Assembly: GCF_018129025.1 (NCBI RefSeq)
Contig: NZ_JAAEDI010000015.1
Coordinates: forward strand, 62,001 to 126,000
From: Neoroseomonas terrae
Lineage (GTDB): Bacteria; Pseudomonadota; Alphaproteobacteria; Acetobacterales; Acetobacteraceae
Length of the DNA: 64,000 bases
Direction: 5' to 3'
A model generated the notes under the pieces. That model was not told the DNA's origin. It worked only from the letters and a program-made list of their open reading frames with translations, and made no database searches. Made by a program: the position numbers and the translations under genes. Positions 53,893 through 58,890 of this stretch are shown piece after piece; position 1 is the first letter of the stretch; every line of letters starts with the position of its first letter.

Positions 53893-53977
53893 GCGGGCGT
53901 GGTGGAACTGGCAGACACGCCGGATTTAGGTTCCGGTGGCGCAAGCCGTGGGGGTTCGAATCCCTTCGCCCGCACCA
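53893..53977 (+). tRNA. tRNA-Leu (anticodon UAG)
   Basis: 85 bases. Acceptor stem GCGGGCG pairs with CGCCCGC (53967-53973); discriminator A and encoded CCA (53975-53977). Anticodon arm CCGGA/TCCGG with loop TTTAGGT gives UAG, reading CUA. A long variable arm and T-arm GGGGGTTCGAATCCC fit a class II tRNA. Directly precedes tig, as in many Rhodospirillales. Confidence 0.95.
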
Positions 53978-54028: not shown

Positions 54029-55861
54029 ATGCAGGTCACCGAGCTCGCGAATGACGGGCTGAAGCGCGCCTACTCCGTCACCGTCTCCGCGGCGGATCTT
54101 GCCGCCTCGCGCGACAAGCGGCTCGCCGAGATCGCCAAGACCGCCACCATGCCGGGCTTCCGCCCGGGCAAGGTGCCGATGTCGGTGGTGAAGCAGCGCT
54201 ACGGCTCCGCCGTGCTGGGGGAGGTGCTGGAGCAGTCCGTTTCCGACACCTCGCGCCAGGTGATCACCGATCGCGGCCTGAAGCCCGCGATGCAGCCGAA
54301 GGTCGAGCTGACGAGCTTCAACGAGGGCGCCGACCTCGAATACCGCATGGATCTCGAGATCCTGCCGGATGTGCCGATGCCGGATTTCTCGGGCATCGAG
54401 CTGGAGCGCCTGAAGGCCGAGCCGGCCGAGGAGGCGATCGACAAGGCGCTTGCTTCCATCGCCGAGCGCAACGGCGAGCTGGCCGATGCCGAGCCGCGCG
54501 CCGCGACGAAGGGCGACATCCTGGTCAGCGACTTCACTGGCCGCCTGCCGGCCGACCTGCTGAAGAACGGCCCCGGCCTCGGCGCCGTGCCGGGCAAGCC
54601 GGGTTCCCTCCCGACCGGCTGGGCCGTCGAGACGGTTGGCCCGCTCGACCATGAGATCGCGGCGATCGGCAGCGAGGCCGGCCGCCCGTATTTCGACCTG
54701 AAGGTGACAGGCACGCCGACCGAGAAGGCGATCCTGCGCATCCGCTTCGCGCCGGTCGACGAGCTCCAGGTGAAGGGCGGCGACACGCTGACGCTGCTGA
54801 CCGCGGTGCGCGTCGCGGACGGCGCCTTGCCGGCGGGTGCGGAGCCGAAGACCGGCTTCAACGAGATCTCGGGCGACAAGGACATCCACCAGCGCGCCGC
54901 CGCGACCCTGGGCGCCGATGGCGATCGCATGACGCTGACGCTCGCCGAAGGTGATGCGCCTGTGCAGGCCTGGCCGAGCTTCGTCGTGACGCTGCCGGCC
55001 GGTGCAGTGGATTTCACGCTGCGCGTCGGCCCCGCCCGGGTCTTCGCCGGCAGCGAGGAACCCGAGGCGCGCGTCTTCCCGGGCGGCACCGCGACCGATC
55101 TGCCGATCGAGGTGGCCGGTACCGGCTTCATCCCCGGCTTCACCGAGCAGATGGACGGCATGGCGCCAGGCGAGACCCGCGAGATCGACGTGGTCTTCCC
55201 GGGCGACTATGGCTCGGCCCAGCTGGCCGGCAAGCATGCCCGCTTCTCGATCACCGCGAAGGCGCTCAAGACCCGCGTCGCGAAGCCGATCGATGACGAA
55301 CTCGCGAAGGCCGTCGGCATGGCGGACCTCGCCGCGCTGAAGGATGCGATCCGTGGCTCGCTCCAGCGTGAGTACGACGCGCTGGCGCGGCTGAAGCTGA
55401 AGCGCGCGCTGCTCGACAGCCTGGCCGACAAGGCGTCCTTCCCGGTGCCGGAAGGCATGGTGGAGGCCGAGTTCGCGCAGATCTGGCAGCGCGTCGAGGC
55501 CGACCTGAAGGCGGGCCGCCTGGACGATGACGACAAGGGCAAGGACGAGGAGACGCTGAAGGCCGAGTACCGCGGCATCGCGGAGCGCCGCATCCGCCTC
55601 GGCCTGCTGCTGTCCGAGATCGGCCGCGCCAACAACGTGCAGGTCGGCCAGGACGAGATGGCCCGCGCCGTCCAGCAGGAAGCGATGCGCTACCCCGGCC
55701 AGGAGCAGCAGGTGCTGGAGTTCTTCCGCAAGAACCCGCAGGCCGCGGAGAACCTCCGCGCCCCGCTGTTCGAGGAGAAGGTCGTGGACTTCATGATCGA
55801 ACTCGCGAAGGTCACCGAGCGCCAGGTGGCGCCGGAGGAGCTGACGACCGCCGCCGCCTGA
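54029..55861 (+). CDS. tig: trigger factor with a large insertion in the FKBP domain
   Basis: Ribosome-bound chaperone, 610 residues instead of the usual 430-450. N-terminal ribosome-binding domain: FRPGKVPMSVVKQRYG near residues 49-64. The FKBP-type domain begins KGDILVSDFTGRLP, is interrupted at about residue 175, and resumes near 342 (EEPEARVFPGGTATDLPIEV, GTGFIPGFTEQMDGMAPGE). The C-terminal helical domain follows normally to the end. Removing residues 175-341 leaves 443 residues, the normal length. The insert (NGPGLGAVPGKPGSLPTGW, PYFDLKVTGTPT, AGAVDFTLRVGPARVF) resembles the jelly-roll module of phage tail proteins. No stop or frameshift; codon use is uniform. Confidence 0.93.
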   Translation: MQVTELANDGLKRAYSVTVSAADLAASRDKRLAEIAKTATMPGFRPGKVPMSVVKQRYGSAVLGEVLEQSVSDTSRQVITDRGLKPAMQPKVELTSFNEGADLEYRMDLEILPDVPMPDFSGIELERLKAEPAEEAIDKALASIAERNGELADAEPRAATKGDILVSDFTGRLPADLLKNGPGLGAVPGKPGSLPTGWAVETVGPLDHEIAAIGSEAGRPYFDLKVTGTPTEKAILRIRFAPVDELQVKGGDTLTLLTAVRVADGALPAGAEPKTGFNEISGDKDIHQRAAATLGADGDRMTLTLAEGDAPVQAWPSFVVTLPAGAVDFTLRVGPARVFAGSEEPEARVFPGGTATDLPIEVAGTGFIPGFTEQMDGMAPGETREIDVVFPGDYGSAQLAGKHARFSITAKALKTRVAKPIDDELAKAVGMADLAALKDAIRGSLQREYDALARLKLKRALLDSLADKASFPVPEGMVEAEFAQIWQRVEADLKAGRLDDDDKGKDEETLKAEYRGIAERRIRLGLLLSEIGRANNVQVGQDEMARAVQQEAMRYPGQEQQVLEFFRKNPQAAENLRAPLFEEKVVDFMIELAKVTERQVAPEELTTAAA

Positions 55862-55919: not shown

Positions 55920-56035
55920 CATGCAGCGCGGCTCCGTTTCATGCTCTCCATCCCGCCTGCGGAAGTAAATGCGCGGCTTCCATGTCGGCCTGCTTGCACC
56001 GCCGCCCGCGCCTCGCCTACATCGGAAGGCAGAAC

Positions 56036-56851
56036 ATGAGCGGTCGTCCGGGCCGCCGAAATATGGGGAGAACGTCGAGGGTGCCTGATGCCATCCTGGA
56101 GACGGCGGGACTGACGAAGGAGTTTCGCGGCTTCGTTGCCGTGAACGACGTCAACCTGTCGGTTCGCCGCGGCACGATCCACGGCCTGATCGGCCCGAAC
56201 GGCGCCGGCAAGACCACCTGCTTCAACCTGCTGACCAAGTTCCTCCCGCCCACCCGCGGCACCATCCACTACGATGGGCGTGACATCACCGGCATGAAGC
56301 CGGCCGAGGTCGCGCGGCTCGGCCTCGTGCGCTCGTTCCAGATCTCCGCGGTTTTCCCGCATCTCTCGGTGCTGGAGAACGTCCGTGTCGCGCTCCAGCG
56401 CAGCCGGGGTGGGTCCTTCGACTTCTGGCGGTCGGACGCGCTGCTGCGCCGCTATGACGACCGGGCGCGCGCGCTGCTCGAGGATGTGGGCCTGTCGGGC
56501 TATGCGGAACTGACGGCCGGCGAACTCCCCTACGGCCGCAAGCGTGCTCTCGAGATCGCTACGACCCTCGCCCTCGATCCCGTGATGATGCTGCTGGACG
56601 AGCCGACCGCGGGCATGACGCATGACGACGTCGGCCGCATCGTCGCGCTGATCCGCCGCGTTTCGGCCGGCCGTACCGTGCTGCTGGTCGAGCACAACCT
56701 CACCGTCGTCTCCGGCCTGTGCGACACGATCACGGTGCTGGCGCGCGGGCGCGTGCTGGCGGAAGGCGACTACGCCACTGTCGCCCGCAACCCGGAGGTC
56801 GTCGCCGCCTATCTCGGCACCGAAGCGCCCACGGAGGCCGCCCATGGCTGA
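56036..56851 (+). CDS. livG: branched-chain amino acid-type ABC transporter ATP-binding protein (LivG)
   Basis: 271 residues. Walker A GPNGAGKT, Q-loop VRSFQISAVFPHLSVLENV, signature LPYGRKRALEIA, Walker B MMLLDEPTAGM, H-loop LVEHNL. LivG-type insertion (RSRGGSFDFWRSD). ATG 56036 has GGAAGG six bases upstream; ATG 56063 and GTG 56081 are alternatives. Overlaps livF. No LivH/LivM permease genes are in the window. Confidence 0.9.
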   Translation: MSGRPGRRNMGRTSRVPDAILETAGLTKEFRGFVAVNDVNLSVRRGTIHGLIGPNGAGKTTCFNLLTKFLPPTRGTIHYDGRDITGMKPAEVARLGLVRSFQISAVFPHLSVLENVRVALQRSRGGSFDFWRSDALLRRYDDRARALLEDVGLSGYAELTAGELPYGRKRALEIATTLALDPVMMLLDEPTAGMTHDDVGRIVALIRRVSAGRTVLLVEHNLTVVSGLCDTITVLARGRVLAEGDYATVARNPEVVAAYLGTEAPTEAAHG

Positions 56852-57587
56852 CGCCCTCGCCGAACGGCTGCGCCCCGTGCAGGACGGCACGCCCCTGATG
56901 GCGGTACGCCGGCTCGAAGCCTGGTATGGCGAAAGCCACGTCCTGCATGGGGTCGACATCGACATCCGTGAAGGTGAGGTGGTCACGCTGCTCGGCCGCA
57001 ATGGCGCGGGCAAGACGTCCACGCTGCGGGCCATCATGGGGCTGGTCCCGAGACGCAGCGGTTCGGTCCAGTATGCGGGGCGGGAACTGATCGGCGCGCG
57101 GTCGGATGTGATCGCCCGCACCGGCGTCGCCTATTGCCCGGAGGAGCGCGGCATCTTCGCCTCGCTCGACGTGACGGAGAACCTGATGCTGCCACCGGTC
57201 GTGCGGCCGGGCGGCCTGCCGGTGGACGAGATCTACGCGCTGTTCCCGAACCTCAAGGAGCGCGCCCGCAGCCAGGGCACGAAGCTGTCGGGGGGCGAGC
57301 AGCAGATGCTCGCCATCGCCCGCATTCTGCGCACCGGGGCGAAGCTGCTGCTGCTCGACGAACCCTCCGAGGGCCTCGCGCCCGTCATCGTCCAGCAGAT
57401 CGGCCGCACGATCCGTGAGCTGAAGAGCCGCGGCTTCACCGTGCTGCTGGTGGAGCAGAACACCCGCTTCGCGCAGACCGTTGCCGACCGGCACTACGTC
57501 ATGGAGCACGGCAAGGTCGTGGACATGGTCCGCAACGAGGAGCTCGCCGGCTCGATGGGCCGCCTTCAGCAGTATCTCGGCGTCTGA
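56844..57587 (+). CDS. livF: branched-chain amino acid-type ABC transporter ATP-binding protein (LivF)
   Basis: 247 residues. Walker A GRNGAGKTSTLRAIMGL, LivF-typical VAYCPEERGIFASLDVTENL, signature LSGGEQQMLAIARIL, Walker B LLLLDEPSEGLAP and H-loop LLVEQNTRF. Second ATPase of the HAAT family pair. 61 bases after it the first of five receptors starts. Confidence 0.93.
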   Translation: MADALAERLRPVQDGTPLMAVRRLEAWYGESHVLHGVDIDIREGEVVTLLGRNGAGKTSTLRAIMGLVPRRSGSVQYAGRELIGARSDVIARTGVAYCPEERGIFASLDVTENLMLPPVVRPGGLPVDEIYALFPNLKERARSQGTKLSGGEQQMLAIARILRTGAKLLLLDEPSEGLAPVIVQQIGRTIRELKSRGFTVLLVEQNTRFAQTVADRHYVMEHGKVVDMVRNEELAGSMGRLQQYLGV

Positions 57588-57648
57588 CGCCGCACCGTGA
57601 CAGGCGGCGCGGATGCAGGCGCCGCTGGCTATCGAAGGAGATGCGTTC

Positions 57649-58890
57649 ATGACCGGACTTTCCCGCCGCGGAGTTCTCGCCGCCGGTGCCGCCGCCGCCT
57701 CCTGGGGGGCGCTGCCGGTTTCCCGCGCCCGCGCGCAGGCCGCCAACACCATCAAGATCGGCGTGCTGAACGACCAGTCAGGGCTTTACCGGGACCTGTC
57801 CGGGCCGGGCTCGACCGCCTGCGTTCGCCAGGCGGTGCAGGAACTGGGCGATCTCGGCTTCACGGTCGAGGTGCTGCAGGCCGATCACCAGAACAAGCCC
57901 GACGTCGGCTCGACCATCGCCCGCCAATGGATCGACCGTGACGGCGTGGACGTCATCATGGACGTCCCGACTTCCTCGGTCGCCCTCGCAGTGAACCAGG
58001 TGGTCAAGGAGAAGAACAAGATCATGCTGAACTCGGGCGCCGCGGCGTCCGACCTGACGGGTTCGGCCTGCACGCCCAACACCATCCACTGGACCTACGA
58101 CACCTACATGCTGGCCCGTGGCACGGGTGGGGCGATGGTGCGCGCGGGCGGCGACACCTGGTTCTTCATCACCGCCGACTACGCCTTCGGCCACGCGCTG
58201 GAACGCGACACGGCGGAATTCGTGCGCTCGGCCGGCGGGCGCGTGCTCGGCCAGGTACGCACGCCTTTCCCCGGGACGACCGACTTCTCCTCCTTCCTCG
58301 TGCAGGCGCAGGCATCCCGCGCGAAGGTGATCGGGCTGGCGAATGCCGGCGGCGACACGATCAACTCGATCAAGCAGGCGGCGGAATTCGGCATCACCCG
58401 CCGTGGCGTGAAGCTCGCCGGGCTGCTCGTGTTCATCACCGACGTGCATGCGCTCGGCCTGCAGACGGCGCAGGGGCTGGTGCTGACCGAGACCTTCTAC
58501 TGGGACCTCAACGACCGCACCCGGGCGCTGACCACGCGCGTGCGGCCGAACATGCCGAACAACGCACCGCCGTCGATGGTGCAGGCGGGCTGCTACTCCG
58601 CCGCGCTGCACTACCTGAAGACGGTGAAGGAGATGGGCGTCGCGGCGGCCAAGGCCGATGGCGCGGCGACCGTGGCGCGCATGAAGGCGATGCCGACCGA
58701 GGATGATGCCTTCGGTGCCGGCTCGATCCGCGCCGATGGTCGCAAGATCCACCCCGCCTACCTGTTCGAGGTGAAGAAGCCCGACGAAGGGCGCGGCGCC
58801 TGGGATTACTACAAGCTGCTGCAGACCGTGCCGGCCGATGAGGCCTTCCGGCCGCTCGCCGCCGGCGGCTGCTCGCTGGTCCGCAGCTGA
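57649..58890 (+). CDS. ABC transporter substrate-binding protein, HAAT/LivK type, paralogue 1
   Basis: 413-residue periplasmic receptor. N-terminal SRRGVLAAGAAA followed by ARAQA indicates Tat export. Type I receptor fold: IKIGVLNDQSGLYRDLSGPG, ADHQNKPDVG, VDVIMDVPTSSVALAVNQV, WFFITADYAFGHALERD and TETFYWDLNDRTRA. Ligand unknown; this branch includes short-chain amide, urea and amino acid receptors. Shine-Dalgarno AAGGAG upstream. Confidence 0.92.
   Translation: MTGLSRRGVLAAGAAAASWGALPVSRARAQAANTIKIGVLNDQSGLYRDLSGPGSTACVRQAVQELGDLGFTVEVLQADHQNKPDVGSTIARQWIDRDGVDVIMDVPTSSVALAVNQVVKEKNKIMLNSGAAASDLTGSACTPNTIHWTYDTYMLARGTGGAMVRAGGDTWFFITADYAFGHALERDTAEFVRSAGGRVLGQVRTPFPGTTDFSSFLVQAQASRAKVIGLANAGGDTINSIKQAAEFGITRRGVKLAGLLVFITDVHALGLQTAQGLVLTETFYWDLNDRTRALTTRVRPNMPNNAPPSMVQAGCYSAALHYLKTVKEMGVAAAKADGAATVARMKAMPTEDDAFGAGSIRADGRKIHPAYLFEVKKPDEGRGAWDYYKLLQTVPADEAFRPLAAGGCSLVRS

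Follow-up and report, generated by a model that had tools for sequence, protein, structure and literature searches.

The tig gene of Neoroseomonas terrae, which lies on the plus strand at positions 54029 (ATG) to 55861 (end of the stop codon) of a 64,000-nucleotide stretch of contig NZ_JAAEDI010000015.1 (the whole stretch being hereafter the window), encodes a trigger factor (TF) of 610 residues whose FKBP domain is interrupted by an inserted module. As judged by sequence homology, this insert is a module from a phage tail/baseplate protein family of wide occurrence, and its predicted fold is a CBM4/CenC-like beta-sandwich. The account that we tentatively favour is that a captured phage-tail module now serves as an accessory client- or partner-binding domain of TF, by analogy with the insert-in-flap domain of SlyD. 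An extra binding surface for clients or a partner would be its most likely role, and a near-neutral passenger is the main rival.

The architecture of the window TF was defined from its open reading frame, Pfam and phmmer. The N-terminal ribosome-binding domain (residues 1–143, 54029 to 54457) matches Trigger_N with an E value of 2.5e-38, and the C-terminal chaperone domain (residues 434–590, 55328 to 55798) matches Trigger_C with an E value of 1.1e-35, whereas FKBP_C is matched over residues 344–403 only (profile positions 20–86), so that the beginning of the FKBP profile is separated from the rest. In a phmmer search against solved structures, E. coli TF was aligned in two blocks, 1–173 and 339–606, with no alignment to E. 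coli TF for the residues between 173 and 339. The first FKBP strand (residues 164–173, 54518 to 54547, from phmmer and the full-length model) is followed by the inserted phage-tail-type beta-sandwich module (residues ~174–346, 54548 to 55066, approximate borders placed by alignment, homology and predicted fold) and then by the remainder of the FKBP peptidyl-prolyl isomerase domain (residues 347–417, 55067 to 55279). Between the columns that flank the insert, insert-free relatives, whose TFs comprise 440–468 residues, have 5–16 residues vs. 177 in the window protein, a net gain of ~161–172 residues. This bears out the preliminary description, which had read an FKBP-domain insertion of about 167 residues (175–341) from the sequence; these residues gave no alignment to ordinary TF.

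Alignment of 40 TFs, including 19 with the insert, places it at one identical position, the turn between the DFxGR and FxGG motifs. The loop at this site is enlarged and often acidic in many insert-free relatives (7–16 residues; e.g., L140, L157, L161, L165 and L169), compared with 5 residues in others, and the enlarged loop may be either a pre-adaptation or the scar of a lost module. The proline-aromatic pocket of E. coli TF, as given in PMC6166725, consists of F168, F177, I195, F198, F217, Y221 and F233. Their equivalents in the window TF, mapped via the phmmer alignment, are F169, F350, I368, F371, F390, Y394 and F406, so that all seven residues of this FKBP-type isomerase pocket are identical to those listed for E. 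coli and the module, from the positions of F169 and F350, lies between the first and second of them. The pocket residues are retained in all 34 insert-bearing main TFs, except for F350 (V in one). Since they are conserved, the isomerase of the insert-bearing TFs is predicted to be intact, and the loss of isomerase activity that the preliminary description had considered is not favoured. All 34 also retain F44, R45 and K48, present in the window TF and which we take to be the ribosome-binding signature.

Searched alone, the insert gave no Pfam and no PHROGs match at E values up to 1. A tblastn search of 50,697 phage records matched only Azospirillum phage Cd (two records), in which gene 49, annotated as 'tail protein' in RefSeq, aligned with 91% of the query at an E value of 2e-3. 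In 299 genomes of the family, the insert query found 38 places in 30 genomes, among them, besides TFs, tail-like proteins that carry the motif N.(V/I)RNPR.EGA..G.PG. A profile of 11 tail modules headed by that of phage Cd (A3) found 352 pattern stretches in viral contigs, 306 of which were confirmed, and 79 loci were kept from this search. Comparison of 12 TF inserts with the 11 tail modules by hhalign yielded a probability of 99.85 and an E value of 1.1e-30 over 168 columns, i.e., homology along the module; the window copy itself sits inside tig, not in a phage structural gene. The predicted fold of the insert is a CBM4/CenC-like beta-sandwich, for which a structure search returned CBM4-2, CBM16, CBM22, CBM61 and a hyaluronan-binding module as the closest solved folds, with Foldseek TM values of 0.35–0.55 across the best 50 PDB rows listed. 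The window insert has no match to Pfam CBM_4_9, which is reached by two of the 79 alignment members (best E value 0.011). The suggestion of a jelly-roll module of the kind found in phage tail and carbohydrate-binding proteins is thus supported by sequence homology together with the predicted fold.

The window's own genome contains a third, divergent copy of the module (E value 1.9e-7), located in a protein with a Phage_Mu_Gp48 domain and tail/baseplate PHROGs. In this Mu-like tail gene (L296 4721–6835, G000:C46), Phage_Mu_Gp48 is fused to the module and to further tail sequence in a product of 704 residues. In a genome of another family (G426; L294 1114–2322, minus strand), a tail-like protein of 402 residues has the module in its interior. 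Judged by eye, the stretches on either side seem to belong to a single uninterrupted tail protein, so that the module may serve as an insertion in phages as well.

Within Neoroseomonas, 29 of 34 congeners and the window's genome supply 30 near-full-length TFs, every one of which matches across the insert; among the other congeners, four TFs are cut at contig ends and one genome gave no match. Of 24 relatives in the class, 20 were matched, each in two pieces and none across the insert. An insert-including profile, for which four candidates per genome were scored, matched in 274 of the 299 family genomes. Among the 150 rows listed, insert-spanning main TFs occur in at least 20 genomes of 7 genus codes (g1, g28, g30, g40, g41, g53 and g88), and the remaining rows listed begin after the insert, except for one second copy in G153. 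No TF insert was found outside the family with a TF-insert profile (A1, up to 9 candidates per genome scored, which may miss very divergent inserts): in 385 genomes of the class it matched only the window's genome and one phage-tail-like gene, that of G426. The preliminary description would have given way had all related genera carried the insert with no similarity to tail or carbohydrate-binding folds. Half of this is seen, as the whole genus has the insert, but other genera mostly lack it and the similarity to tail and carbohydrate-binding folds is clear.

A core tree was built for 85 TFs (34 with and 51 without the insert) with the insert columns excluded. Insert presence requires at least 8 changes on this tree, 7 of which are forced by well-supported branches, and 8–9 changes across 200 bootstrap replicates. 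Were there only one gain, 14 losses would have to follow, which makes spread by exchange no less plausible than loss. The closest pair that differs in the insert, R. aerilata (with) and R. nepalensis (without), shares 498 of 539 and 735 of 805 identical bases on the two flanks, and their tig genes differ by one clean in-frame block of 501 bases.

Module trees separate 36 TF inserts from 57 tail modules by one branch, with a support of 93 in the Shimodaira–Hasegawa-like approximate likelihood ratio test (SH-aLRT), or 91 when only module columns are used. An extended tree with more tails that were not chosen by motif, one row of which was read on the wrong strand, required 3 changes and placed the inserts together in none of 200 bootstrap trees. 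After correction (seven extra tails, one of them a duplicate), the free quick tree required 2 changes, and holding the TF inserts together gave a higher likelihood (+12.8, p-AU of the approximately unbiased test 0.68). TF inserts of different lineages are about equally similar to tail modules and to one another (39 inserts vs. 30 tail modules), their identity to tail modules being mostly about 25–35%. Independent capture in each lineage is less favoured, as the module trees mostly group the TF inserts apart from the tails, a separation that is less clean with more tails. The trees favour, without proving, one founding capture followed by vertical descent within Neoroseomonas, with recurrent clean losses or exchanges in other lineages and rapid divergence; loss, and probably exchange as well, would have followed the capture. 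The direction from phage to TF is suggested by how broadly the family is spread among viruses, compared with its restricted occurrence in TFs.

Selection on the module was assessed through omega from Nei–Gojobori counts, given for pairs with a core identity of at least 86%. In eight metagenome-assembled genomes (MAGs), several of which are named after lakes, insert omega is 0.04–0.13, close to the core values of 0.05–0.09, and the sequences of this clade thus point to strong purifying selection on the insert. In other members of the genus, insert omega is 0.2–0.8 vs. 0.06–0.30 for the core, and it reaches 0.93–1.35 in the worst-aligned pairs; values cannot be relied on for inserts less than about 45% identical. 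Roseomonas sp. E05 and P. coralli have cores that are 96% identical (proportion of synonymous differences, pS, 0.18) and inserts that are 37% identical (pS 0.43, rough at such low identity), a disparity which suggests replacement of the insert rather than gradual change. YN00 and Nei–Gojobori disagree here, with core synonymous divergence (dS) of 0.61 and 0.20, respectively.

The window's genome has two TF genes, neither of which is insert-free. The second (G000:C21:69880–71670; L002 976–2778) encodes a divergent paralogue of 600 residues with the same inserted module, in which K48 of the signature is replaced by E and the isomerase pocket is altered at five of its seven positions. Across five second copies (four genus codes, all found via the insert search), E stands in place of K48 in all five, F44 is lost in three, and losses from the seven-residue pocket number four to seven per copy. 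The second copy spans the module also in G020, G021, G032 and, in part, G153. The idea that second copies always keep the module was based on the five copies found with the insert and was rejected, since second TFs without it exist in three genomes: G172 (L341 3–983, minus strand, G172:C69), where the copy is divergent and has a close, module-bearing counterpart in G086; G105 (L355, G105:C117), where only the N- and C-domains remain and most of the FKBP part is gone; and G223, where the copy is an ordinary insert-free TF. The paralogues show the same presence/absence pattern as the main TFs, and supply no argument for an indispensable module. No gene neighbourhood is common to seven second copies, except for one neighbour in both g120 genomes (G209 and G153), a 264-residue open reading frame beside the second tig (L331 and L332). 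This neighbour is 93% identical between the two genomes and the paralogue about 44–48%, and the g120 paralogue is therefore evolving very fast.

The phage tail/baseplate-type module sits in the FKBP beta-hairpin between pocket residues F168 and F177 (E. coli numbering), the rest of the chaperone being intact. In the account that we favour, it would have been domesticated as an accessory domain for binding. From its tethered position close to the isomerase pocket, it may provide an additional surface on which nascent or unfolded clients, or a partner, are kept near the pocket. Such a surface is considered the most likely role because a hairpin-tethered domain resembles SlyD in principle. Several observations weigh against this account. 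The module is absent from very close relatives, and is thus dispensable on short time scales; the second TFs of G172 and G086 differ in it; and outside one clade the insert evolves fast, as could be expected under weak constraint and under adaptation alike. In addition, the SlyD domain occupies a different FKBP loop, and the full-length model has a predicted TM score (pTM) of 0.53, so that it does not settle where the module lies with respect to the other domains.

The main rival, a serious possibility if a lesser one, is that a captured, self-folding module is tolerated at the exposed tip of the hairpin, kept or lost by drift and recombination, and functionless. A passenger of this kind would explain the patchy distribution with its eight or more changes, the clean block that sets R. 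aerilata apart from R. nepalensis, the discordant counterparts G086 and G172 within one genus code, the fast divergence of the insert outside one clade, and a conservation of the pocket residues that is the same whether or not the module is there. However, it would not lead one to expect the insert in every near-full-length TF of the genus, a fold-type pattern that is maintained at 20–30% insert identity, or the strong purifying selection in the lake-MAG clade.

A more elaborate proposal, which we consider rather unlikely, is that TF has domesticated a phage receptor-binding-type module as a client-binding domain that diversifies and can be exchanged, being swapped, gained and lost between species via recombination through conserved tig flanks. 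If true, a core folding factor would possess a variable recognition domain. Binding of a glycan, a glycolipid precursor or another small ligand through the CBM-like cleft is suggested by the closest solved folds; it is improbable, given that TF is a cytosolic protein by class and that CBM_4_9 is reached by so few members of the alignment, the window insert not among them. Equally improbable is a phage-related role, in which the TF-borne module would disturb tail assembly or adsorption of module-carrying phages or prophages as a decoy, dominant-negative subunit or folding template. Several insert-bearing genomes, including the window's own and G061 (R. rosea), do have module-bearing tail-like genes. 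However, for the placed tail copies (G000, G032, G061 and G218 shown), the TF insert from their own genome is in no case the nearest row, and identity between TF inserts and tail modules is low, as given above. A sequence artefact or mis-called gene is refuted by conservation, the same architecture and site recurring in many independent assemblies with inserts 18–99% identical to each other.

As to how the module entered tig, the preliminary description had pointed to GCCGGC at 54547–54552 and 55046–55051 as a possible target-site duplication. Both copies exist, but the hexamer is common, with 174 copies in the window vs. 127.5 expected, a count that none of 100 shuffles reached, and seven inside tig (54421, 54547, 54677, 54829, 54994, 55046 and 55226); in the alignment, the module border does not coincide with the second copy, and other repeats near the insert, of 10–17 bases, lie within it or elsewhere in tig. 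A duplication was therefore rejected. Recent foreign origin was also rejected on composition, as the G+C fraction of two 250-base segments fully within the insert (0.704–0.720) is only slightly above that of tig segments fully outside it (0.664–0.704). Upstream of tig lies a tRNA-Leu gene (53893 to 53977, plus strand, ARAGORN). The usual neighbours of tig are clpP-clpX-lon; here, the downstream open reading frames at 55982–58890 appear by eye to encode a branched-chain amino acid ABC transporter (LivG/LivF and a binding protein) instead.

TF is regarded as an architecturally conserved chaperone, and no description of such a TF was found in the open-licence PubMed Central (PMC) literature, judged from titles and abstract starts among the matches listed. 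The insert seems a clear case of a viral structural module turned into a part of housekeeping machinery. Its genus-wide occurrence, together with presence or absence between species whose tig core DNA is ~92% identical, provides natural matched pairs for tests of co-translational folding.

Compared with known systems, the window TF differs from E. coli Tig (PDB 1w26) by about 165–170 extra residues, which are predicted to form a separate domain within the FKBP hairpin. The insert resembles the module of Azospirillum phage Cd gp49 in homology over its whole length and in fold type, whereas gp49-type modules sit in phage structural proteins, and the aligned TF inserts lack the RNPR motif and mostly group apart in trees. 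Relative to CBM4/CenC modules, the window insert is 10% identical to R. marinus CBM4-2 (PDB 2y6j), with no Pfam CBM match. According to PMC5034536, the insert-in-flap domain of SlyD binds peptides and raises isomerase activity on protein substrates; the likeness is that of a domain inserted in an FKBP isomerase loop near the pocket. In SlyD, as described there, the insert replaces the flap (80s) loop, whereas that of TF lies between the equivalents of F168 and F177, and the inserted module of TF, unlike that of SlyD, is kin to phage tails.
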